From a bacterium HR37 (GTDB lineage: Bacteria > Desulfobacterota_D > UBA1144 > Nemesobacterales > CSP1-2): a stretch of DNA of 64,000 bases. Within the stretch, counting starts at the first letter, position 1, and each line of letters begins with the position of its first letter. Both the position numbers and the translations under genes were made by a program. A model generated the notes under the pieces. The model had not been told where the DNA came from and made no database searches. It worked only from the letters and a program-made list of their open reading frames with translations. Below are positions 13,246 to 60,058 of this stretch, one piece after another. The DNA lies in NCBI GenBank assembly GCA_002898375.1, contig BEIN01000008.1, forward strand, positions 36,453 through 100,452, read 5' to 3'.

Positions 13246-16200
13246 TTAAAGCATCTCCTCCCAGAAAAGGGTTTGAGTCCTTGTCGGAAACGGAGGAAGT
13301 TCCCACACCAGAAACTGAGACCCCCCGGTTGCAGCACTTCCGGTAAAGGCCATTGTAAGAACCACAGAGCCACGGGCACCGAATGTAAGCTGTGCGGGTG
13401 TAGGCATACCCTCTGCCACCGTTCTTCCCGCTGCATTCTCCTTTTCACTATCGTTTCCCTGAATTAGCTTTTTTGCCCCCGGTACCCTTGCCAGGGCTGG
13501 CTCTCCAGTTAGGTAGTCTATTGCAAACACCCTTCCAACACCTGCACTTGAGGTACAGGGGTCTTCTGAGCCTCCAATATCGGGTGCAAACGTTGCAAAT
13601 ATAAGTACCCTGTTTATAACAACAGGTGAGCCAAACCCCTTCTCCCCTCCCGGAGAATCAGCGTTATTGGGAAAAACAACTATAAACTCTCCCTGATTGT
13701 TAACAGCAGCCCCACCAGAGGTTGTAAACTGATCAGATATACCCGTACCTGTCTGAGGAACAAGCTTTATTATCTGACCGGAAGTAAAATCAGCCTCTGT
13801 CTTTGTTGGGGCTGATACAGCGCTACCAGCTTCACCACCTGCAAGAAAAGCAGGGATAAACTCATCTATAAAATTGTAGAGCTTACCGTACTCGGCTATG
13901 TTGCTTGGATGTCTTCTGTTTCCCGTAACAAATACTACATGTCTTCTACCCAGGTCATCCAAAACAACGGTAGGAGCAAAGAATATGGGTTGCCTTTCCC
14001 CTTCTGGAATAGAGCCCGGATCGTTACACTGCTCTAAATTAGCCGTTGCACAAAATGCTATGTCCCCTGTCCAGTCAGGAGCCGTTATATTTGCGTTCCC
14101 ATCACGGCCGGTTTGCGAAATGTCTGAGTCCGCTACAATCGGTTTTGATATATCAAACCTCCATAACCTTCCGCAGGTATCACCCGCATAGGCTATATCA
14201 ACGTACCCATCTGCATTGAGATCAAATACACCAACCTTACTTGGAACATCACAAGTCATTCTCGGGTCCGTAAGTGTAGCATTTGGTGCACTTGCTGTAT
14301 CCTTTGCGAACTTAAATATTATCTTTCCAGTCGGTATATCTATGGCGTAAAAAGCGTTTCCAAAACTAACACCATCGGTTGGGTCCGTATCAGTTGGGTC
14401 AAGCCCTCCACCAACAAACATAACCCATCTATCCACAGTCTGTCCTGCCACCTTCATCCTTACCCTTCCAATCGTTGGATCAGACCATGAGTTTCCAAAG
14501 TTCTTATCAAAAGTGGTCCAGAGGTGCTGTGGGTACTCGGGACCACTATCCTTTTGCTTTCCTACCTCCGTACAGTTCTCATCCATACACTTTATATTGG
14601 TAACATCAAGGGCAATATAAGCCCCTCCCCCGTTTCTAAAGCCTGAGAGAAGAACAGTGTGCCATTCTCTACCGCACTTATCTATCTCCCCATCAACCAA
14701 GGGTATATCTTTACACACTTTTTTTTCACTTTCCGTAATCTGTATACCGTTTTCATAGCCATCTATAAACACATCAGCAACTAAGGGAGAGCCATCAAAA
14801 AAAGACCTCTCTACCTGGCTATCTACAATAAAGGTCTTAAAATCCCCAAACCTGTAATCCGGTATAATACCTGAAGGGGATTCAGGAGACTTTGTAAGGG
14901 GAGCACGAGAGTCGGGAAGAAAAGATGGGGGAGCAAACCCAAAAACCTCCCTTCCCGTTCCAGCATTAAAGAAAGGTACCTTCTCCACCTCCCCCGTAAA
15001 TGGGTTTACCTTGCTTGAATCTGGTAGAGACGGGTCAAGCGGATTTATAAAGTTTCCGGCATGAAAACCGTGTATAAACCCATCGTTTGCACCAACGTAA
15101 ACCACTGCCGTTCTGTCTCTAAACTCCTTTGCAAAGTTTTGAAACCCCACATCGAAGAACAAAGCTGAAGGAGAACCCACAACAACAGGTACCGAATGGA
15201 ATATATCTCCCAGACGGATCGAACAGGTTGCAAAGCTTCCCCCAAGCTGAGGGTCAGGACAGTTGGTTCCCATTGAGCCCATGGGATCTCCAACGGGGAG
15301 TATGTTTGTGTTTCCCTTCATGAAATCCACAATCTTATCCCTTATGCACTCCTTTACACAGCTTCTGCACTCCTCACTTCCCGTATCGCCACAGAGGGAA
15401 GAACAATCCTTTATGCCGTTTTCCTGGCAGAAATCCGGAATGGGATCCGTAACATCTGCATCACTTATACCAAAAACCTCAGGCTCAAAGGTGTTATTGA
15501 AAACAACCCTCTCACCCGTATATCTTATGCTTACAATCTGGTCATCACTTGTTTTAACCGTCTCTATTTTGGATGTATCCATTGTGTTAACGGTAAAAAG
15601 GTTTCTCGGATCAGAGGCTATATCCCTTTCCGCTAGTGTTTTTCCAGCCTCCCAGTGGAAGTTCTTTGCATTCTGATTAAGAGAGCCGTCTTCATCAAAG
15701 ATAACGTTTCCGTTTACATCAACCGCCATTTTTGCCCCGGGGTTTTGAGGGTCATTAACAAAACCGTAAAGGGCAAGTCTTCCCTGCCAGAGTCTCTCAC
15801 CACTTACAGGGGTGAGTATGGATAAAAACACCCTGTCTCTAAGGGCAACACTTGTAGAAGACTGTGGTGCCGTGGGAGCAATTCCAGAGGTGCTAAATGT
15901 TTGTATAAACTCTAATATGGTCTTAAGTGCATCGGCAAGCTCCTCCGCGTTGTTTGCAAAGAAGGCAAAACCCTCAAGCGGTTGACCTTCTGTAAACGGG
16001 GTCCCTGTTTCAAAGAAGCTGTTATCGAATACATTAATACCCTGAAACTGACACACCCCATCTTCATCCGGTGTCTTGCAGCCGGCAAGGGTTGCACTCA
16101 CCGGGTCAGTATCTATGCCCTTTGCAATCCCAAGGTCTTTAAAAACACCAAACGCATCCCCAGAAGGAAGCACACTCTCTATGTCAACCGTTCCGACCTC

Positions 16201-17835
16201 TTTCCCATCTGGTCCCTTGTGTTTTATAACACCGGTTGTGTGTGTTCCTCCCGCAAGTGCCATGGCATTTAGCGTCCTTTTTGCCTGAGGAGAGTCAATC
16301 CCTATACCGATAACGAAGGTTAGGATCTCTTTCTTAAATTGCTTTCCTCTGTTTTTTACCGGGTTTCTTGCGTAGTAGGTTCTTAGGTTGCTTACAGCCT
16401 GTATGGAGCTTCTTCGATTGGCATTTGTTGTTTCAGAACCACTACACGAACCCGGGGTTACACTGCACTCCCCTGAACACGTATCCTCACCATCCGTTAT
16501 CACAACAACAAACTCGGGCCTGCACTCAATTGCGGGGTCAGTCTGTAGCTCAACCCTGTAGGCTCCAAGTGCATCGTTTGGAATGGTGCTGTTACTTGCA
16601 CTGCTATCATCAAAGCCAAGCGAATAGGCAAGAGGGGTTCCACCCCAGGCAGTTTGGCCTCTATAGAACTTCCATACGTTATCAAGGGCCTGCTTGCTAC
16701 CACCAGCAAAACCTCCCTGAGGAAGCTGAAAGGTGTTTCCTGCCGTACATCCCCTCCAGGCCGCACCTGAATAGGTCATGGGACGAAACCTTATCCCGAG
16801 AAGCTCGGCATCGTTATCGGTAAGCTCATCTATAAGAGGGGTGTCGCTACCATTGGTTATTGGAAGCTTAAAACCGCTTCCCGTTCCCTTAACATGAGAA
16901 CTTACATCCCTGTAAGGGGTCTCCATGTAATCCCTGCAACTTATAGAGGAGTTAACACCGTCAAAGAGCTTGCCCGGGTCATCACAGAACTTGGAGGCAA
17001 GAGAGTCATCTGCATCCAGGAAATTGAAAAACACACTGAGAGCAACATCCAGACGGGAACTTCCAAACCTTGGTTCCCCCTTACAATCTGAGGTTCCACC
17101 ACTACAGTTATCATCCTTATTTTTTGAGATTAACTGAAGCGTTTGCATGCAGGTTTTAAACCTGCTGTAGTCACTGCTTGTATCACAGGATGGGTCTCTA
17201 TCTGAGCCAACCTGACAGTTTGTTGGCCCAGAGCACATGGTAAGCCCTGCAGCAGCCTCTATAGCCGCAGCTGCCCTTGAGCGCTCAAAATCGTCATCAC
17301 AGCTTGAGGCTGTTTCCCCGCAAACCCCGTTATTGTTACCGCATACCCTGTCATAGATACAGGATGGGTCAAAACCAGGTACCTTATCAAGCACGCAGTT
17401 TAAAAGGTTGTTAAATTCTTCCTCAGAGGAGCAGACACCGTTTGGACACCACTTCGAGCCACATTCGCTTGTGTTTGCCGTGTTTTCAGCACAGTGAGCA
17501 GACCTGGCCCTTCTATCATCGCTACTGCTTCCGAATGCATCCTCACAGTCATTGATTGTGGATTTAACATCCCAGTTCCCAACCTGGGTTCCCCCCCAGT
17601 TTCTTCCCATTGAACCTGAGAGATCCAGTATGGTAAGGACGTTTGGCTGCCCACCAACAAACTGGGAAATAAGTATGTTAAGGTCCTCTACCTCGTTTTT
17701 GGTAATAGGGTCGCTTTGAGCACCGGTTACAAGAGCAAGAGATAGCAAAACAATTGCTAACTTTACCCTGTAAAAACCATGTCTTAGCCTAGTAAACATT
17801 ACTGGCACCCCCCGGGATAAAGGTTTCAACCCCAA
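13246..17835 (-). CDS. pilY1: PilY1-like pilus tip-associated protein with VWA domain
   Basis: VWA MIDAS (NVLTILDLSGSM, VVVITDGED), PilY1 beta-propeller (VVYVGANDGFIHGFHA), Ca-binding-like DLNADGYVD. Confidence 0.85.
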   Translation of the reverse strand: MGLKPLSRGVPVMFTRLRHGFYRVKLAIVLLSLALVTGAQSDPITKNEVEDLNILISQFVGGQPNVLTILDLSGSMGRNWGGTQVGNWDVKSTINDCEDAFGSSSDDRRARSAHCAENTANTSECGSKWCPNGVCSSEEEFNNLLNCVLDKVPGFDPSCIYDRVCGNNNGVCGETASSCDDDFERSRAAAAIEAAAGLTMCSGPTNCQVGSDRDPSCDTSSDYSRFKTCMQTLQLISKNKDDNCSGGTSDCKGEPRFGSSRLDVALSVFFNFLDADDSLASKFCDDPGKLFDGVNSSISCRDYMETPYRDVSSHVKGTGSGFKLPITNGSDTPLIDELTDNDAELLGIRFRPMTYSGAAWRGCTAGNTFQLPQGGFAGGSKQALDNVWKFYRGQTAWGGTPLAYSLGFDDSSASNSTIPNDALGAYRVELQTDPAIECRPEFVVVITDGEDTCSGECSVTPGSCSGSETTNANRRSSIQAVSNLRTYYARNPVKNRGKQFKKEILTFVIGIGIDSPQAKRTLNAMALAGGTHTTGVIKHKGPDGKEVGTVDIESVLPSGDAFGVFKDLGIAKGIDTDPVSATLAGCKTPDEDGVCQFQGINVFDNSFFETGTPFTEGQPLEGFAFFANNAEELADALKTILEFIQTFSTSGIAPTAPQSSTSVALRDRVFLSILTPVSGERLWQGRLALYGFVNDPQNPGAKMAVDVNGNVIFDEDGSLNQNAKNFHWEAGKTLAERDIASDPRNLFTVNTMDTSKIETVKTSDDQIVSIRYTGERVVFNNTFEPEVFGISDADVTDPIPDFCQENGIKDCSSLCGDTGSEECRSCVKECIRDKIVDFMKGNTNILPVGDPMGSMGTNCPDPQLGGSFATCSIRLGDIFHSVPVVVGSPSALFFDVGFQNFAKEFRDRTAVVYVGANDGFIHGFHAGNFINPLDPSLPDSSKVNPFTGEVEKVPFFNAGTGREVFGFAPPSFLPDSRAPLTKSPESPSGIIPDYRFGDFKTFIVDSQVERSFFDGSPLVADVFIDGYENGIQITESEKKVCKDIPLVDGEIDKCGREWHTVLLSGFRNGGGAYIALDVTNIKCMDENCTEVGKQKDSGPEYPQHLWTTFDKNFGNSWSDPTIGRVRMKVAGQTVDRWVMFVGGGLDPTDTDPTDGVSFGNAFYAIDIPTGKIIFKFAKDTASAPNATLTDPRMTCDVPSKVGVFDLNADGYVDIAYAGDTCGRLWRFDISKPIVADSDISQTGRDGNANITAPDWTGDIAFCATANLEQCNDPGSIPEGERQPIFFAPTVVLDDLGRRHVVFVTGNRRHPSNIAEYGKLYNFIDEFIPAFLAGGEAGSAVSAPTKTEADFTSGQIIKLVPQTGTGISDQFTTSGGAAVNNQGEFIVVFPNNADSPGGEKGFGSPVVINRVLIFATFAPDIGGSEDPCTSSAGVGRVFAIDYLTGEPALARVPGAKKLIQGNDSEKENAAGRTVAEGMPTPAQLTFGARGSVVLTMAFTGSAATGGSQFLVWELPPFPTRTQTLFWEEML

Positions 17836-18355
17836 ATGCTATCTCTGTTCCGGTGTTAATCTCCTCTTTTGTGTCTTCGGGGTCCTTATCCCTTGCATCC
17901 TTTCCAACAACCGTAAAGGTTGTAGAAACCAAAGCGGCTCCTCCAATTCCGCCGGAGGGAAGGCTTACGTGCTTTATAGGTCTTCCATACGCCTTTGTAC
18001 TAACCTCTTTAGGAACTATGTAAAGGTCGGAAGGGTTATTTTCACTCCAGTCAAAATCCCGTCTTCCGCTTCTACATCTTGCTCCATTTGAAAGCTCAAG
18101 CTCAACAGTTAAGTCCTCTGCGTTAATTTCACTTTGAAGTAAAAAGTATAGCGTCTCTATACCCACCACCTCAAACCTTTTTCTTCCCTCCTCAATGCAC
18201 CTTTCTGCAGCCAGAAAAGCCTCCTGCCCCTGCTTGTAGTTTGACATGGTTTGAAAGTCCACATTTGACATAAAAGATATGGTTACCGCAAGCACTGATA
18301 GAACAAGAAGCATTATAAGAGCAAGTATTATTGCTATCCCGTCTTCCCTCTTCAT
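17789..18355 (-). CDS. pilX: PilX-like minor pilin
   Basis: KREDGIAIILALIMLLVLSVLAVTISFMSN, position in cluster. Confidence 0.75.
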   Translation of the reverse strand: MKREDGIAIILALIMLLVLSVLAVTISFMSNVDFQTMSNYKQGQEAFLAAERCIEEGRKRFEVVGIETLYFLLQSEINAEDLTVELELSNGARCRSGRRDFDWSENNPSDLYIVPKEVSTKAYGRPIKHVSLPSGGIGGAALVSTTFTVVGKDARDKDPEDTKEEINTGTEIAFGVETFIPGGASNVY

Positions 18356-18376
18356 AACCTTCTCCTGTATATAGAC

Positions 18377-19630
18377 TTATCCAAACTCCTCTCTTGCCAT
18401 ATTCCTTACATATACGGTTGTCGAAAACACCCTGTATATAAACCCCTCTCCCAGAGAAGAAGATTGCCTTTGCATCACATCCCCAATCTGGGGTATTGTC
18501 TGGGTAGGGATTTGCTGTCCACTTATTAGCTGGGAACTTACCCTGGATCTTACAACAAGGTATATCTCAACGGTTCTTATATCCTTTTCTCTTCCCAGAA
18601 GGGAGGGATCAGAGCTGAAATCGGGATACATCCTGTTAGCCTCATCTAAAGGGACACCAACCTTCGTTATACCCCCATCCGGGTCCTGAAGGTTAAAAAC
18701 AAACTGGATATCAACTATACCGGGAGCATCAACCCCTCCAGCAATAGGCTGGAAAGGCCCACCGTTTTGGGACATCTCTAGCTCCATGTTTTCCATATCC
18801 ACCCTGAACGTCTTTGACTGAACAACTGTCATTTCGGAAACCTGAGAAGAAATCTCGGGGATAAAAAAGGAGCTTAAAAACTCTTCAAAACTAGAGAAAT
18901 CCTCTTCTTGAAAATTCTGCTCCTTTATAAGCCCTTTATCATTGCTCACGGTAATTTGCTTTAAACTGTTATTAACATCGCTTATCTCCAAAATGGCACC
19001 ACACTCAGTACAGAGCTGGGGATTGCTTAGACAATCCACACTCCCACTGGGATTGCACATATTAATACGTGACCTAAAACCGATATAGTCTCCGGGTTCA
19101 ACTATAGGTATAGTTTCTTCACTCCCATCTTCTTTTTTGATAGTAATAATCCACTCATCAGGAAGCCTTAGAATAAGCTGAGGGCCTCCTGATATAATTT
19201 CCACTGTAGTAGCAACAGAAGGAAGATCCACTTTTTTTTCTTTTTTTTCTTCTTTTTCTTCATTTTCTTCATCTTCGTCACCGTTGTTCTGTCCCCTCGT
19301 TATATCCCATGTGTAGAGGGTAATACAGTCTGGAGGGGAAGCCGCTGTTCCCGGAACATCGGTGTTACTGGAACAGGGGGGGTTAACCCCGCTTCCACCG
19401 TTCACAAACTTAATCGAAAAAGTCTTTCCCTGTCTTGAAACGGCATTTCTTATCTCTGTTGCTATGTAATCAAGCGTTGCCCTTGCGGTCTGGTCAATAT
19501 CCACAGCCTCTCTGGTAAAGCTAAACTGTCTTTGCTGCTGGATAAATACCACGGTAAGCCCGGCAATCATGACGGAGAGAATCCCTATAGCCACTAAAAG
19601 CTCAAGTACGGTAAATCCCCTGCTTCTCAT
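18377..19630 (-). CDS. pilW: PilW-like minor pilin
   Basis: RGFTVLELLVAIGILSVMIAGL prepilin motif; neighbours. Confidence 0.75.
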   Translation of the reverse strand: MRSRGFTVLELLVAIGILSVMIAGLTVVFIQQQRQFSFTREAVDIDQTARATLDYIATEIRNAVSRQGKTFSIKFVNGGSGVNPPCSSNTDVPGTAASPPDCITLYTWDITRGQNNGDEDEENEEKEEKKEKKVDLPSVATTVEIISGGPQLILRLPDEWIITIKKEDGSEETIPIVEPGDYIGFRSRINMCNPSGSVDCLSNPQLCTECGAILEISDVNNSLKQITVSNDKGLIKEQNFQEEDFSSFEEFLSSFFIPEISSQVSEMTVVQSKTFRVDMENMELEMSQNGGPFQPIAGGVDAPGIVDIQFVFNLQDPDGGITKVGVPLDEANRMYPDFSSDPSLLGREKDIRTVEIYLVVRSRVSSQLISGQQIPTQTIPQIGDVMQRQSSSLGEGFIYRVFSTTVYVRNMAREEFG

Positions 19631-19650: not shown

Positions 19651-20379
19651 TTAAGGTATATGCGGTATAAGAACCTCATTCCATCCCGGAACAAAGTTAG
19701 AATAGTCGCTCTCATGAGCGGTAATCTCGTATACCTGACTTGCAAGAGAATCACTTATATCCACACTGAATCCGGTATCCTCAAACTGAGCCTCTGTTTT
19801 TACGGCATAGTTTATAGAAACCGTAAGGGTTCTTATCCCGTTAAGAGTCTCTTCCCTGGCTTCTGCCCTTTTTACAACGTAGAGAAAAGACCTGTTTGCA
19901 TCCCTCATGCTGGTCGCATCACTCTTACAGTCAGAAAGGGTATTTCTAAACACAACCTTATCCGGGTCACTGTCTTTTAGATCCACAACCGCGCAGGTAT
20001 TCTCAACAGTTCCATTATCCAGTTCTGAAATCACAAACTCAAGCGGGTTACAGGGACAGGAATCACAAACTGATTCACTAGAAGAATCATTACAGTAGCT
20101 AAGGTCATATGTCTTTCCAGCCTGGGCATCCATATATACAATTGAGTTATAAAGATGCCTTCTTTTTACCTCTGCCATATCTCTGTCTGCGATAAACTGG
20201 ATAACGTTTGTAGCAACGGTTCCTTCCTCTGCCCTCTGCTTTTGCCTCAGGGCAAGAAACTCCATTTCAGCCATGGCTAAGAAGCCAAGCCCCATTATGA
20301 GCAGTGCCACAAGCACCTCGGTTATCGTAAACCCTTCCTGCTTCTTTAGGCCGCACATATTCAAAGACTTACGTAGCAA
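19651..20379 (-). CDS. pilV: PilV-like minor pilin
   Basis: EGFTITEVLVALLIMGLGFLAMAEME prepilin motif. Confidence 0.75.
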   Translation of the reverse strand: MLRKSLNMCGLKKQEGFTITEVLVALLIMGLGFLAMAEMEFLALRQKQRAEEGTVATNVIQFIADRDMAEVKRRHLYNSIVYMDAQAGKTYDLSYCNDSSSESVCDSCPCNPLEFVISELDNGTVENTCAVVDLKDSDPDKVVFRNTLSDCKSDATSMRDANRSFLYVVKRAEAREETLNGIRTLTVSINYAVKTEAQFEDTGFSVDISDSLASQVYEITAHESDYSNFVPGWNEVLIPHIP

Positions 20380-25373: not shown

Positions 25374-26780
25374 ATGAATAAACTCTTTGTATATCCACAA
25401 GAAGATACAATCGCCGCCCTTGCAACCCCTCCAGGAGAAGGTGGGATTGCAGTAATAAGGATCAGCGGAAAACATGCCCTAGAGGCTTTAAGCAGGGTAT
25501 TTAAAAGAGCCACCCCAGGAAGTGTTTTTGATATGAAGACCCACAGACTTTACAGAGGTCATGTATTTGACCCTGAAAGCAAAGCAACAATAGACAGCGT
25601 ACTCTGTGTTGTAATGCGGTCTCCAAATTCATATACAGGAGAGGATGTGGTGGAGATACACTGCCACGGTGGATATCTGGTCCCAAAAATGATCCTAGAT
25701 GTCCTGTTTAAAAACGGGGTAAGACCTGCTCAACCCGGTGAATTCACCCTAAGGGCTTTTCTAAATGGCAAGATGGATCTTGCCCAGGCTGAGGCTGTGG
25801 CAGATGTTGTACATGCGCAAACACAAAGGAGCCTAAGGCAAGCAGAACTACAACTAGAGGGGATGCTTTCAAAGAAAATCGAAGGCTTTAAAGAAAGCAT
25901 ACTGGATACGCTTGCGGAGATAGAGGCACAGGTAGATTTCCCGGAAGAAGATATAGACCCTATCTTAAAGGAGGAAATAAGCAGAAGGATTAAAACAACC
26001 CTAGAAGAACTGCAAAAGCTGCTTTCCACATACGAAGAAGGAAGAATAATAAAATACGGGGTGTACACCGCTATACTGGGGAAACCAAACGTTGGTAAAT
26101 CAAGCCTGTTAAACCTTCTTGTTATGAAAGAAAGAGCTATCGTAAGCCCATACCCGGGAACAACAAGAGACTTTATTGAGGAAACCGTGGAAATAAAAGG
26201 TATACCCCTAAGGCTAATAGATACGGCTGGACTGAGAGCTACCGCCGATGATATAGAAAGGGTAGGAGTAGAGCTGGCAAAAAAGAAGGCCCAAGAAGCA
26301 GAGTTTATAATCGCGGTAATAGATGGAAGCACAAAACTGGATGAAAATGACCTTGAGGTTCTAGAGAAGATCCAGGGGAAAAAGTCCATAATAGTGGTAA
26401 ACAAACTCGACCTACCACAGGAGGTCTCGGAGAAAGAGTTATCGAGGTTTGTTTCCGAAAGCAGAATTGTAAAGACCTCCGCAAAGCTTGGATTGGGTAT
26501 TGAAGAGCTAAAGGACACTATACTCGAAGTCCTTACAGGTAGAGAAAACCCTCCTAGGGAGGAAGAGGTCATAATAACGGAGCTTAGACACAAAGTGGCA
26601 ATCCAGAAAGCAAAGGAGAGCCTGCTTTCCTTCCTGGAATCACTAGAGAGAGGAGAGTCACCTGAGTTTCTGGCAGTTGACCTACGTAGCGCCCTTGATT
26701 CCCTTGGTGAGATAACAGGAGAGACTTCAACAGAAGATATCCTTGGAAGGATATTTAGCAGGTTCTGTATAGGCAAGTAA
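25374..26780 (+). CDS. mnmE: tRNA modification GTPase MnmE
   Basis: DTIAALATPPGEGGIAVIRISG, GKPNVGKSSLLN, C-terminal FCIGK. Confidence 0.97.
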   Translation: MNKLFVYPQEDTIAALATPPGEGGIAVIRISGKHALEALSRVFKRATPGSVFDMKTHRLYRGHVFDPESKATIDSVLCVVMRSPNSYTGEDVVEIHCHGGYLVPKMILDVLFKNGVRPAQPGEFTLRAFLNGKMDLAQAEAVADVVHAQTQRSLRQAELQLEGMLSKKIEGFKESILDTLAEIEAQVDFPEEDIDPILKEEISRRIKTTLEELQKLLSTYEEGRIIKYGVYTAILGKPNVGKSSLLNLLVMKERAIVSPYPGTTRDFIEETVEIKGIPLRLIDTAGLRATADDIERVGVELAKKKAQEAEFIIAVIDGSTKLDENDLEVLEKIQGKKSIIVVNKLDLPQEVSEKELSRFVSESRIVKTSAKLGLGIEELKDTILEVLTGRENPPREEEVIITELRHKVAIQKAKESLLSFLESLERGESPEFLAVDLRSALDSLGEITGETSTEDILGRIFSRFCIGK

Positions 26781-26800
26781 GATGTTTCACGTGAAACATC
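26781..26800. promoter_or_regulatory. parS site
   Basis: Perfect palindrome GATGTTTCACGTGAAACATC containing the canonical parS TGTTTCACGTGAAACA. Confidence 0.85.
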
Positions 26801-26945
26801 CACAGGCTGTGGATAAACTTTTCCACAGCTGTGGACAACCTGAGGGAAATAAAATTGAATATTTTTAGGAAGTTAGAAGTAACCCTATCCTGGGATAGAT
26901 AAATTATCCACATTTAATCCACAAGTTTTTGTTTAACCTCCAAAA
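26796..26945. other. candidate chromosomal replication origin (oriC): DnaA-box array plus AT-rich segment
   Basis: TGTGGATAA (26808), TTTTCCACA (26819), TGTGGACAA (26830), TTATCCACA (26904), TAATCCACA (26915); AT-rich AAATAAAATTGAATATTTTTAGG between; adjacent parS and mnmE. Confidence 0.7.
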
Positions 26946-26948
26946 GTT

Positions 26949-27764
26949 CTAAAGCCAGTTTAGCTTTTTCATAACCGCACCTCGAACCACTTCAAACCTA
27001 GAAGAGTCCGATGGCAGAAAGACATTTCCTATCTGCGCAACAGGCATAACACCAACAAGGGAGTTTGTTAAAAAAGCCCCATCAGATGAGAGTAAAGCAT
27101 CCAGATCAAACCTACCCTCCTCTACCTTTATCCCAAGCTCACTTGCACTCTCTATTGTAATACCGCGTGTAATCCCCGGTAAAAGCCCACATGAAGGCTC
27201 AGGGGTAAAAAGCATTCCTTCTTTTAACCAAAATATATTACTTGCACTTGCTTCGGTAACCTCCCCTTTTTCATTCAGGAAAACTGCCTCATCAAAACCA
27301 GAAGAAAGGGCACTCCTTCTAGCTATTACGTTTTCTAAATAGTTAATGGATTTAATCCCTGAAACGGGAGAGGTAGATGCACGATAAAATGGGGAAACGC
27401 ATACTCTAACCTGCGTTTTACAAGGTTCACGGTATTGCCTAACCGTAACAAGCACAGACCCACTTTGAGGAAGCTCATAGAAAACAGGGCTCCCGCAAGA
27501 AAGCAAACACACCTTTACATAAGCATCAGAAATACCTGAGATAGAAACAGCCTCCTCTACACAGGCCAAAAGGTAGTTCTCCCCAGGAAAGGGAATGTGG
27601 AGCATGGCTGCTCCTTTTTTTAACCTCTCGACGTGTCTTTTCCAGAAAACCGGAGGAGAGAACCTCCATCTAAACGTTTCAAAAACACCTTCACCATAGA
27701 AAAGAGACCTTAGAGGAAATCCCTCCTTAAGTGGAGCCCTATTTAAATACACAAACTGCTTCAT
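26949..27764 (-). CDS. pabC: class IV aminotransferase, aminodeoxychorismate lyase-like
   Basis: GEGVFETFRW, NYLENVIARR, EVTEASASNIFW; next to pabB. Confidence 0.8.
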   Translation of the reverse strand: MKQFVYLNRAPLKEGFPLRSLFYGEGVFETFRWRFSPPVFWKRHVERLKKGAAMLHIPFPGENYLLACVEEAVSISGISDAYVKVCLLSCGSPVFYELPQSGSVLVTVRQYREPCKTQVRVCVSPFYRASTSPVSGIKSINYLENVIARRSALSSGFDEAVFLNEKGEVTEASASNIFWLKEGMLFTPEPSCGLLPGITRGITIESASELGIKVEEGRFDLDALLSSDGAFLTNSLVGVMPVAQIGNVFLPSDSSRFEVVRGAVMKKLNWL

Positions 27765-45828: not shown

Positions 45829-46930
45829 ATGAGATTGGCTTACCAGTACCGTCTCAAGCCGAATAGGACGCAGGAAAGGCTTCTGGCGACACTCCTTGGC
45901 GTTGCTTGCTGTTTCTACAACGAAGCGCTCGCCGAGAGGAAGAAAGCTTGGGAACAGGAGAGACGAACCGTCACCTATCTCGACCAAGCAAGGAAACTGA
46001 CAGAATCGAGGAAGATCGATAATGAAATCGCCCGCTTGAACTTCAGTGCCGCCCAGCATGTCCTTCGTCGGCTGGACAAGGCGTTCCGGCAGTTTTTCAG
46101 AGCCGTCCAAGCAGGACAGAAGGTTGGTTATCCTCGGTTTAAAAAACCTCATCGTTTTCGCACATTGGAATTCACCTACGGAGATGGGACGAAGATTAAG
46201 CCCGACGAAAGGGAACGGTTGCGGCTTTATATCCAGAATGTCGGCATGATTAAGGTTATCTGGCATCGCCCTTGAAGTCTCCGATGACCTTCTCCACCGG
46301 CCTTTGCCCCCAACGAGGAAGGTCGTCGGCATTGATGTCGGTGTGGAAAACTTGCTGGCACTCTCCGATGGCAGGTTCATAGATAATCCTAAGTGGCTTA
46401 GGCGTATAGAAGCAAAGATTGCCAAAAAGCAACGCATCCTCAGTAAAAAGGTCAAAGGCTCCAAGCGTTGGAAGCACATGTGCAAGCAAATTGCAAAACT
46501 TCACCTTAAGGTCGCCCGACAGCGCCGGGACTTCTACTTTAAGTTGGCGGCAGAGTTGGTCGGAGACCACGACTTGATTTGCACTGAAAACCTGAACATC
46601 AAAGGCTTGGCTCAGGGTAACCTGAGCAAGTCGGTGCTTGATGCCGGTTGGTCAGTGTTCCTTCGTCACATCCTTCCCTACAAGGCTTGGAGGGTTGGTA
46701 GGGAAGTGGTTTATGTGCCCGCCAACGGCACGAGCCAGACTTGCGCAAACTGCGGTGCCCTTGCTCCCAAAGATCTGTCCGTTCGCCGGCATGACTGTCC
46801 ACACTGTGGATTCTCCGTTCATCGGGACATCAACTCCGCTCTTTTGATACTTCAACTGGACTTGGAACGAGCCCGCAGGGACCGGGTGAATGCCTGGTCA
46901 TGCCTGCAGGAAGCCGTCGGCTTTAGCTGA
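45829..46930 (+). pseudogene. tnpB: TnpB with internal frameshift/deletion around 46260-46304
   Basis: N-terminal part in one frame (...VGMIKVIWHRP*), C-terminal part in another (KVVGIDVGVENLLALSDG, LICTENLNIKGL, CANCG...CPHCGFSVHRDINSA). Confidence 0.85.
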
Positions 46931-51107: not shown

Positions 51108-52079
51108 CTCTGTTGCAAAGATATGTATAAGTAGCCTCCTTTATGGCTATAGTTTGCTTTGTTGCAAACATCATTTTTCAGGGAGAGAAAAACAAAATGG
51201 TGTCACCAAACTTTCTCTTAATCACTGAGTTAATTGTCTCACAAAGCCATCCCTTGCCATAAATCCCCATCCATTTTGAAACCCTATAGACCATATAAGC
51301 TAATATCCTATTCCAACTCTTTATACCTCCTCCACGCCTTATGGAGGGAATAACCCTTATTGGAAGTCCAAATCTCATATTTCCACTGCCATTAAATCCC
51401 CCCTCCATTACCTCTATTAAAGACCTAATGGGTGAGTTCTTCTCCAGTTTACAGAGCCCCCAGGAATCCCCACTAGGACCCCTCCCTACTACCTGAGATA
51501 CTAAAGCCTGTGTCCTTGTATCCAATAGATACCAGACCTTTATCCACCTCTTCCTCTTCTTTCCACTCCTTAGGGCATAATAAAATCCTGCTACATCTTC
51601 TTTAAACCCAGTTGAATCACAGGTAAATAAAAACCCTAAACCCCTACTTGAAATAACTACCTCCAAAACCTTCCCTAAAAGCCTCTTTATCCCTTTACCA
51701 CTTATCCTACTTAATGCCCTACAAAATGTTGAATAATTAGGTATCCTCCTTAAACCCAATACCCTGCACATCTCTCCTGAGGATAGTAAAAACTCCTCTA
51801 AGTCCCTATAAGACATGTTCTTCATGTATATCTTTAAAAGCACACATGAGATTAGCTGAGGAAGACTATATATGTGCGGACTCTTCTTGTGTGAATACAT
51901 TGGAAGTGTTTGTCTTGTAACAAAATATGCCACCTTTAAAAACCTCTTGTATCTACCTTCCTTTTTATTCCGTTTAAGATTAAAATTATTACTAAATTTC
52001 ATTTGCCTCCTTAGGGTATAGTGGATTATGTTTAATTTATACCCTAAGGAGGCTAATTATACATATCTTTGCAACAGAG
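51108..52079 (-). mobile_element. insertion sequence with 34-bp terminal inverted repeats (1 mismatch)
   Basis: Left CTCTGTTGCAAAGATATGTATAAGTAGCCTCCTT; right end, reverse complemented, CTCTGTTGCAAAGATATGTATAATTAGCCTCCTT. Confidence 0.92.
51178..52002 (-). CDS. DDE-type IS transposase (IS4/IS5-like)
   Basis: RDLEEFL...RIPNYSTFCRALSRI...LFTCDSTGF...GKGWLCETINSVIKRKFGD; lies between matched TIRs. Confidence 0.8.
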   Translation of the reverse strand: MKFSNNFNLKRNKKEGRYKRFLKVAYFVTRQTLPMYSHKKSPHIYSLPQLISCVLLKIYMKNMSYRDLEEFLLSSGEMCRVLGLRRIPNYSTFCRALSRISGKGIKRLLGKVLEVVISSRGLGFLFTCDSTGFKEDVAGFYYALRSGKKRKRWIKVWYLLDTRTQALVSQVVGRGPSGDSWGLCKLEKNSPIRSLIEVMEGGFNGSGNMRFGLPIRVIPSIRRGGGIKSWNRILAYMVYRVSKWMGIYGKGWLCETINSVIKRKFGDTILFFSP

Positions 52080-55100: not shown

Positions 55101-56984
55101 CTAAGCTTCTAAGATGTTTAAGAGTTTGTTTTTTCTTATTGCTGCTTTTACCATATAATGGGAGACATTATAACCACTCTTTCTGAGTTCTTCTGTAAGT
55201 TTATTTAGTGAGATTTGCGTATTTGAAGCCATTATATCAGCAAGTTTGATTTCCCAGGGCAAGGGTGGTTTTGGTTTTAAATCACTTAGAAGTGAGGTAA
55301 CACCACGCTTATTAAACTCACTTATTGCGTATCTTATCCGCCCTGGATGGATACCAAGGATACCTGCTATCTTCCAGGAAGAAAGTCCATCGCTTGAAAG
55401 AAGAATAGCCTTTGCTCTTATATTTCCCTTAAGAACAAGTTCTTTTATCTGCTTCTGCTCTTCTTCTGTAAGTGGTCTTACCTTTTCTTTTATGCTCTTT
55501 TCATAATCAGTAAGGGTAAGACAGTAACCTGTTTTAAATACAGCATCAATTTTTTCTGGATAAACAACTATTGACTTAAATATTGCCCTTATTAAGGCTT
55601 TCTTTTCAGAAGGTGTTGCTAAATTTATGATTTTACTGAAGTTGTCTATTGCTTTTGAAAACAACTTACGCTCATGTTCTATATTTTTCTCTCTATCCTG
55701 TCTTAAATACAATTCCTCCTGACGGCTTTTAAGAAGTGCCATTTCGGATTCAAGCTCTTTTAACCTTTCTTTTAAAATAGCTTTATTTATTTCCTCATCT
55801 TCATAAAGTTCAAAAATCTTTTTTCTCTTTGCCTCAATACGCTCAAGGGCAGTTGATATGTTCTTAATTTCTTTACTGATTTCCTCACCCCTATTTTCTC
55901 CCTTAAAAGAGGAAAGAATAAGTTCTTTTTCCTTTTGAGTAATTTCTATAAGTTTGGAAACAAGGAGTTTTTCTATTTTTGTTCCATTTACTGTTCTATT
56001 GTTACATACAACACTTCCCTTGCCTTTTCTTGAAGAGCAGAAATAATTAACAACTCCTCTTTCTTTCCTTCGGTTAACGCTATAGCTCATTCCACAAAGA
56101 CCACACCTTATGATGCCAGAAAGTGGATACACACTTGATAAACTTCTTCCCCTTTGATTTCTTTCTTTTATTCTTGAGGATGCCAGATCAAATAACTCCT
56201 CTGAGATTATAGGGGGAAAGTTACCCTTTAGTTTAATCCATTCGGATTTTGGACGCTTAATTACTTTTCCCCTTAGAGACTTTGTTTTATTCCACACAAT
56301 CAATCCTGCATATATTGGGTTATTAAGAATTGAACTTATACTGCCATGGTTCCAGAATCCACCCTGCCTTGTCTTTAACCCAATCTCATTAAGGTGCGAG
56401 GCTATTTTTCTATATCCCCAGTGATTATCCACACAGAGTTTAAAAATAAGCCTTACAACCTCTGCTTCAGCCTCATTGATTTTATACTCTCCATCCTCTA
56501 TCCTGTATCCATAGGGTGGAAGTCCTAAAGCTGGATTTCCCATCTGAACCTTCTTTAGCTTGCCAAGTCTTGTTCTTTCCCCAATAGATTCCCTTTCAAA
56601 TTGGGCAAAAACAGCAAGCACATTAACAAGGGCACGTCCTGATGGGGTTGAGGTATCTATGTTTTCTGTAGCAGAATCAAAGATAACACCATGTTTTTCA
56701 AAGAACTCAACTATATCCGAAAAATCCCCTACACTTCTTGAGATTCTATCAAGTCTCCATACAAGAACTGCATTTATTTTTCCATCCTCAATATCCTTAA
56801 GAAGCCTTTTTAAAGCAGGTCTATTTATATCCTTTGCAGAAAATCCTGCATCCTCATATATACCTGCAATTTCCCATCCTTTTTTAAGTGCATAGTCCCT
56901 AAGAGCCTCTTTCTGAGCTTCTATTGAGTAACCTCGTATTGCCTGTTCTTCTGTTGATACCCTGAGGTATAAAGCTACTTTCAC
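55101..56984 (-). CDS. large serine recombinase with C-terminal IS630-like HTH
   Basis: ALYLRVSTEEQAIRGYSIEAQ, VWRLDRISRS, Recombinase domain, CGLCGMSY zinc ribbon, coiled coil; then RAKAILLSSDGLSSWKIAGILGIHPGRIRYAISEFNKRGVTSLL. Confidence 0.9.
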   Translation of the reverse strand: MKVALYLRVSTEEQAIRGYSIEAQKEALRDYALKKGWEIAGIYEDAGFSAKDINRPALKRLLKDIEDGKINAVLVWRLDRISRSVGDFSDIVEFFEKHGVIFDSATENIDTSTPSGRALVNVLAVFAQFERESIGERTRLGKLKKVQMGNPALGLPPYGYRIEDGEYKINEAEAEVVRLIFKLCVDNHWGYRKIASHLNEIGLKTRQGGFWNHGSISSILNNPIYAGLIVWNKTKSLRGKVIKRPKSEWIKLKGNFPPIISEELFDLASSRIKERNQRGRSLSSVYPLSGIIRCGLCGMSYSVNRRKERGVVNYFCSSRKGKGSVVCNNRTVNGTKIEKLLVSKLIEITQKEKELILSSFKGENRGEEISKEIKNISTALERIEAKRKKIFELYEDEEINKAILKERLKELESEMALLKSRQEELYLRQDREKNIEHERKLFSKAIDNFSKIINLATPSEKKALIRAIFKSIVVYPEKIDAVFKTGYCLTLTDYEKSIKEKVRPLTEEEQKQIKELVLKGNIRAKAILLSSDGLSSWKIAGILGIHPGRIRYAISEFNKRGVTSLLSDLKPKPPLPWEIKLADIMASNTQISLNKLTEELRKSGYNVSHYMVKAAIRKNKLLNILEA

Positions 56985-59528: not shown

Positions 59529-60058
59529 GTGAACTACTCCCAGCTTACGCAGGGAGCTTCTCCTGAGCTTAGCCCAAGAAGGCTAGTTCCTAACCTTAAA
59601 ATATTACGTGACGCATTAATGTCTCTATCAAGAACAATATGACATTTATTGCAAATATGAACCCTATAAGAAAGCAATTTTGGGACTTTAGCACCACAGT
59701 TGCTACAGTTCTGGCTTGTCCCCCTTGGAGCTACCCCAATAGCATACTTACCAGCACTCTCAGCCTTGTAAGCTATGTATTGGAGAAACCTACCCCAGGA
59801 ACAATCACCAATAGATTTAGAAAGATTACCATTTTTTAGGAAATGAACTTCCTCAAACTCAGCTCTAACCTGCTTGACCTCTACAAGGGAATTAGCCTGC
59901 TCAAGATAGGTAACAAGGTATCTTGCTTTTTGCCAAGCCTGAATTCTATGCAGAAGTGCAGAGTTATAAAGCTCTCTACAAAGCTTAAGAGTGGATTCGA
60001 GTTTTTGAAGATGGGTTTTATTGGGGTAGAGTCTGAATTTGTAACTTAGCCTCAACAT
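59529..60058 (-). pseudogene. in-frame internally deleted TnpB with intact right-end hairpin and GTAGTTCAC terminus
   Basis: N-terminus MLRLSYKFRLYPNKTHLQKLESTLKLCRELYNSAL joined to NGNLSKSIGDCSWGRFLQYIAYKAE...CSNCG...CNKCHIVLDRDINASRNI; RuvC-I/II region absent. Confidence 0.75.

Follow-up and report, generated by a model that had tools for sequence, protein, structure and literature searches.

The question raised by this locus is whether the short gap that follows mnmE, in which a parS site stands beside a cluster of DnaA boxes, is the chromosomal replication origin or an element of another kind. The gap (168 bp, 26781-26948) lies within the window, by which we mean the whole stretch of 64,000 nucleotides that was analysed (G000:C8:36453-100452), and the host genome (G000) is a 97.6%-complete draft of 2.42 Mb in 33 contigs. 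The flanking genes, mnmE on the forward strand and a pabC-like gene of the Aminotran_4 type on the reverse strand, converge on the gap, as the initial annotation had stated and as open reading frames and Pfam matches confirm, and mnmE itself is present in all 44 genomes of the order. That annotation proposed a candidate oriC; our analysis favours, with a probability of roughly 0.6, a parS centromere combined with a DnaA-binding regulatory module, the origin itself being located between dnaA and dnaN (Table 1).

Table 1. Predicted features of the gap after mnmE, its flanking genes and the likely origin (positions are those of the window unless a contig is named)
Feature	Position	Strand	Remarks
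mnmE, tRNA modification GTPase	25374..26780	+	Pfam MnmE_helical, TrmE_N, MMR_HSR1; TAA 26778-26780
parS palindrome GATGTTTCACGTGAAACATC, predicted ParB loading site	26781..26800	.	20 bp; core 26783-26798
DnaA box 1, TTATCCACA	26808..26816	-	perfect; between-family identity 0.83
DnaA-box-like TTTTCCACA	26819..26827	+	at most 1 mismatch; not conserved in relatives
DnaA-box-like TTGTCCACA	26830..26838	-	at most 1 mismatch; not conserved in relatives
Motif M, TTGAATATTTTTAGGAAGTTAG (consensus TTCAATAATTTCAGGTAGTTAG), candidate binding site	26855..26876	+	22 bp; between DnaA-box groups
DnaA box 2, TTATCCACA	26904..26912	+	perfect; between-family identity 0.90
DnaA box 3, TAATCCACA	26915..26923	+	tandem, 11 bp after box 2; between-family identity 0.70
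pabC-like class IV aminotransferase	26949..27764	-	Pfam Aminotran_4
Likely true oriC	G000:C28:5077-5303 (L005)	.	dnaA-dnaN; DnaA-box cluster, box-spacer-DnaA-trio module, AT-rich DNA

The perfect parS that had been annotated directly after the mnmE TAA was confirmed as a 20-bp palindrome (26781-26800), within which the 16-bp consensus TGTTTCACGTGAAACA is matched without mismatch at 26783-26798. With up to two mismatches allowed, it was the single parS site both in the window (0 expected from shuffles) and in the whole 2.42-Mb assembly. The annotated cluster of at least five DnaA-box-like 9-mers, two of them perfect, was recovered as five boxes with at most one mismatch between 26808 and 26923, compared to ~0.05 expected in ~165 bp (shuffle rate 17.6 per 64 kb). 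The annotation of nested inverted repeats also holds, box 1 forming the right half of the inverted repeat ATCCACAG-G-CTGTGGAT (26798-26814). Perfect DnaA boxes are common throughout the genome (68, vs 29 for the reversed control), so the box cluster alone is weak evidence; it is conservation across families that turns this cluster of putative sites into strong evidence. From the sites we infer that DnaA would bind at the boxes and ParB at parS.

parS adjoins mnmE in 41 of the 44 genomes of the order, mostly abutting the stop codon and in family f6 often standing on both sides of the gene, which, together with its being the sole parS of the genome, upholds the parS part of the initial annotation. 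Between-family identity reached 0.92 for parS and 0.60 for motif M, vs only 0.33-0.39 for the spacers. Box 1 lies ~10 bp past parS, with the tandem boxes 2 and 3 a further 94-98 bp beyond box 1 in f1 and f7, and the boxes of the conserved element fall 10-130 bp from parS. Families f1 and f7 keep boxes 1 to 3 beside parS, f2 does so largely and f5 partly, and f3 keeps boxes 2 and 3. The survey of relatives that had been suggested as a check thus bore out parS and these three boxes and found the boxes at 26819 and 26830 not to be conserved. Among the 25 elements outside f4 and f6, a box occurs within 30 bp of parS in 23 (at most 2 in shuffles) and at 85-120 bp from it in all 25 (at most 3 in shuffles), none of the 200 shuffles coming close to the observed counts. 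The strict composite pattern was detected in 20 of the 58 genomes of the phylum (reversed control, 0). A protein similar to the pabC-like aminotransferase is the neighbour of the element in f1, f2, f5 and f7, not in f3, f6 or f8; in f3 the element persists though its downstream gene differs.

The two halves of the element can also part. Family f6 retains parS (often twice) and M and has lost good DnaA boxes, f8, a sister order in which MnmE is 35-41% identical, retains M and boxes and has mostly lost the adjacent parS, and G007 has an intact parS upstream of mnmE and boxes downstream, suggesting that parS itself is not necessarily what the DnaA module acts on. At loci L066, L091, L108, L126, L135 and L144, parS (0-2 mismatches) lies within ~10 bp of the mnmE stop without DnaA boxes, and some of the distant records in which parS touches the stop are labelled Deltaproteobacteria, Desulfuromonadales or Geobacter, uncultured organisms among them. 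The occurrence of parS at the mnmE stop in distant records also means that parS in this place predates the DnaA half and is more widespread than it, and, on this comparison of sequences, the DnaA part would be an addition to the mnmE-parS arrangement made in this order. A literature search for parS, DnaA box and mnmE together found nothing within its incomplete coverage, and one for parS, mnmE and oriC returned nothing on the subject by title and abstract. Neither half is of a new kind; what is new is that both are combined with M in a fixed arrangement throughout the order.

ParB, the partner expected for parS, was detected in 42 of the 44 genomes of the order at E<=0.001, with 39 above the cut-off. 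The TIGR00180 search of G000 gave no ParB match, a miss which arises because the stretch of contig C11 that precedes the readable end of the gene reads N; the ParB C-terminus is present at C11 ~19999-20076 (L269), beside purS-like and purQ-like genes and far from parS.

Motif M is retained after mnmE phylum-wide, including in f6, despite the decay of the boxes there, and in f8, where M follows the mnmE stop and is succeeded by DnaA boxes that read TTATCAACA..TCCACA..TGTTGATAA. It also stands upstream of dnaA in many f1, f7 and f8 genomes, and in G000 at C28 6956-6977 (L005). Across the genome, matches to M are approximately threefold more numerous than those of the reversed control and are mostly intergenic; outside the mnmE and dnaA loci they mostly occur without DnaA boxes, which weakens the idea that M is a DnaA-specific partner. 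Judged by eye, M agrees only partially with the IHF consensus, and it is flanked by boxes. Its sequence and distribution suggest that M would be bound by a DNA-bending or regulatory protein with no particular tie to DnaA.

mnmE (C8) and dnaA (C28) fall on separate contigs in this draft. In relatives with both genes on one contig they are 15-27 kb apart, and parS is there origin-proximal, 15-27 kb from dnaA. The dnaA-dnaN gap of C28 contains six DnaA boxes in ~170 bp (a count that reaches into the last bases of dnaA), and these end in TTATCCACAAATCCACAGCCTCTACTACTATTACTATTATTA, a DnaA-box/spacer/DnaA-trio module that is followed by AT-rich DNA. Such an arrangement constitutes the basal unwinding system, or BUS (PMC8287927), here taken as DnaA-trios no more than 16 bp after the DnaA box(es). 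A DnaA-trio was found at dnaA-dnaN in genomes of f1, f2, f3, f6 and f7 and in f8, which makes up almost every family of the phylum, and was not found at this position in f4; within 600 bp after mnmE, no element examined has one. A better box cluster beside dnaA had been named in the initial annotation as an observation that would tell against an origin at mnmE, and C28 holds such a cluster, trio included.

GC skew, named for the same purpose, also places the switch at dnaA and not at mnmE in G000 and in the relatives whose skew is clear. The relative G026 is complete, and its cumulative minimum (1,107,521) coincides with the end of dnaA; mnmE is located 22 kb from it on the falling slope. The minimum lies inside dnaA in G001, G004 and G007 (the contig of G007 ends just past it), and in G000 it is at dnaA on C28, the skew on C8 falling steadily across mnmE with no switch. 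Strand-corrected skew, in which change-points are sought at third codon positions and corrected for gene strand, placed the change-point at dnaA-dnaN in G000 (C28), G001, G004, G014 and G026. Where both loci were compared, dnaA-dnaN was better than mnmE by 8 to 19 log-likelihood units (gains of 28.5 vs 9.1 in G004, 30.9 vs 12.8 in G001, 16.8 vs 8.7 in G026 and 15.5 vs 6.9 in G014). The signal is ambiguous, weak and inconsistent in G011 (f4), G045 and G057 (f8). The strand-corrected change-point is closer to mnmE than to dnaA in G011 and G057, but the strands or the raw skew disagree. An origin at mnmE would draw on these two genomes and on the presence of parS and DnaA boxes near an origin-associated gene; it was rejected on DnaA-trios, box count and GC skew, and we regard it as very improbable. 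An ancestral origin, relic or secondary, which has kept its DnaA boxes without unwinding activity, would fit both the boxes after mnmE, which are older than the split of the two orders, and the 15-27 kb that still separate mnmE from dnaA where they share a contig. The strong conservation of sites and spacing, however, argues for a present function, and the trio at dnaA-dnaN in f8 too makes the dnaA-dnaN origin equally old, so that a relic is, in our judgement, a similarly slim prospect. A B. subtilis-type oriC with BUS shares DnaA boxes with the mnmE site and is matched by the likely oriC on C28, whereas the mnmE site is without DnaA-trios and off the skew switch.

The sites, their conservation and location, the missing unwinding module and the course of the skew can all be read in the DNA; protein binding and the functional steps that follow we infer from them. 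According to our preferred reading, a centromere with a DnaA-binding module, ParB would load at parS and spread, and ParA would drive segregation of the origin-proximal region so marked. DnaA would occupy box 1 on one side of M and the tandem pair of boxes 2 and 3 on the other, at near-constant spacing, and a protein bound at M would probably bend or bridge the DNA between the box groups. The resulting DnaA complex could make segregation conditional on the state of the initiator, as at the Caulobacter centromere, and/or adjust the amount of active DnaA, as do datA and DARS. On these sites, DnaA could plausibly be coupled to segregation. That DnaA and the M-bound protein act directly on ParB-parS beside mnmE, and so tie the onset of segregation to how active the initiator is, may be put forward only tentatively, because f6, f8 and G007 show that the modules can part.

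The closest precedents appear to be the Caulobacter centromere (parS with boxes) and E. coli datA (boxes, bend, boxes). Caulobacter has a single main parS ~8 kb from the origin (Cori) that binds DnaA (Mera et al., 2014, as summarized in PMC6399470), and DnaA at levels too low to start replication can, by the same summary, still start segregation (PMC6399470). As in Caulobacter crescentus, the main parS here is near the origin and apart from it, with predicted DnaA sites at parS; unlike that system, the element belongs to another phylum with other neighbouring genes and has inverted and tandem boxes at conserved spacing around M. The parS2 locus of Vibrio cholerae binds the initiator RctB (PMC6399470). 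The rctA/parS2 region of chromosome II is likewise a centromere locus with sites for a replication initiator (predicted, in our case), but that initiator is not DnaA, and the chromosome whose origin holds the locus is a secondary one. The datA and DARS loci of E. coli are clusters of DnaA boxes in intergenic DNA at which a bend protein alters DnaA activity, and the datA core, also intergenic, reads box-box-IHF site-box (PMC5742627). The mnmE element resembles datA, DARS1 and DARS2 as an intergenic box cluster away from oriC whose boxes flank one motif, and differs from them in being joined to parS, in the imperfect agreement of M with an IHF site, and in lying only 15-27 kb from dnaA in relatives. 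To our knowledge, E. coli is without parABS.

This likeness makes it necessary to consider that the boxes form a datA/DARS-like element regulating DnaA (by titration, ATP hydrolysis or reactivation) which merely stands beside parS, both being kept near the origin with no link to segregation. Such an element would account for the order box pair, M, box pair, which resembles the datA core at intergenic gene ends, for the separation of the DnaA module from parS in f6, f8 and G007, and for the presence of M with DnaA boxes upstream of dnaA as well. It would not account for the imperfect IHF match of M, for a parS that nowhere in the order lies more than ~2 kb from mnmE, or for the near contiguity of parS and box 1 at near-constant spacing in f1 and f7, and we consider it rather unlikely. 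A transcription terminator or RNA element between the convergent genes, the palindromes being RNA hairpins, would agree with a sense RNA that folds better than shuffles (z = -3.5). A fold of this kind is, however, expected from the palindromic parS and the inverted boxes, and what is conserved is the exact predicted protein-binding sites and not the spacers. No terminator-like or promoter-like sites were found in the element, and the Rfam search of it gave no match, so a terminator, promoter or RNA element was rejected and seems to us hardly credible.

If DnaA does act directly on ParB-parS in this element, it would provide sequence-level support that the action of DnaA at centromeres, previously established in Caulobacter, is not peculiar to that organism. 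The element bears on how bacteria coordinate the onset of replication with that of segregation, and a strictly positioned parS-box-M-box in an uncultured order offers comparative evidence for such a link as well as the exact bases to mutate. It also advises caution in origin calls, since finding DnaA boxes and parS close to mnmE is not enough to identify an oriC.

Several further observations concern the genome at large. On contig C6, copies of M at L248 3665-3686 and 3753-3774 flank a tandem pair of DnaA boxes beside a CRISPR-like array. This pair consists of two perfect boxes 11 bp apart (G000:C6:33709-33728; L248 3709-3728) and occupies the leader side, between RAMP-like genes (type III CRISPR-type by the look of the sequence) and the CRISPR-like repeat array. 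Within the window, GC skew is positive in the right part, past 60 kb. TnpB-like, transposase-like and serine recombinase-like open reading frames, which have the look of a mobile-element cluster, are found at 46304-46930, 51178-52002, 55101-56984 and 59534-60058, and at 13246-19630 a large gene, PilY1-like by the look of its sequence, stands beside minor pilin genes of type IV pilin-like appearance.
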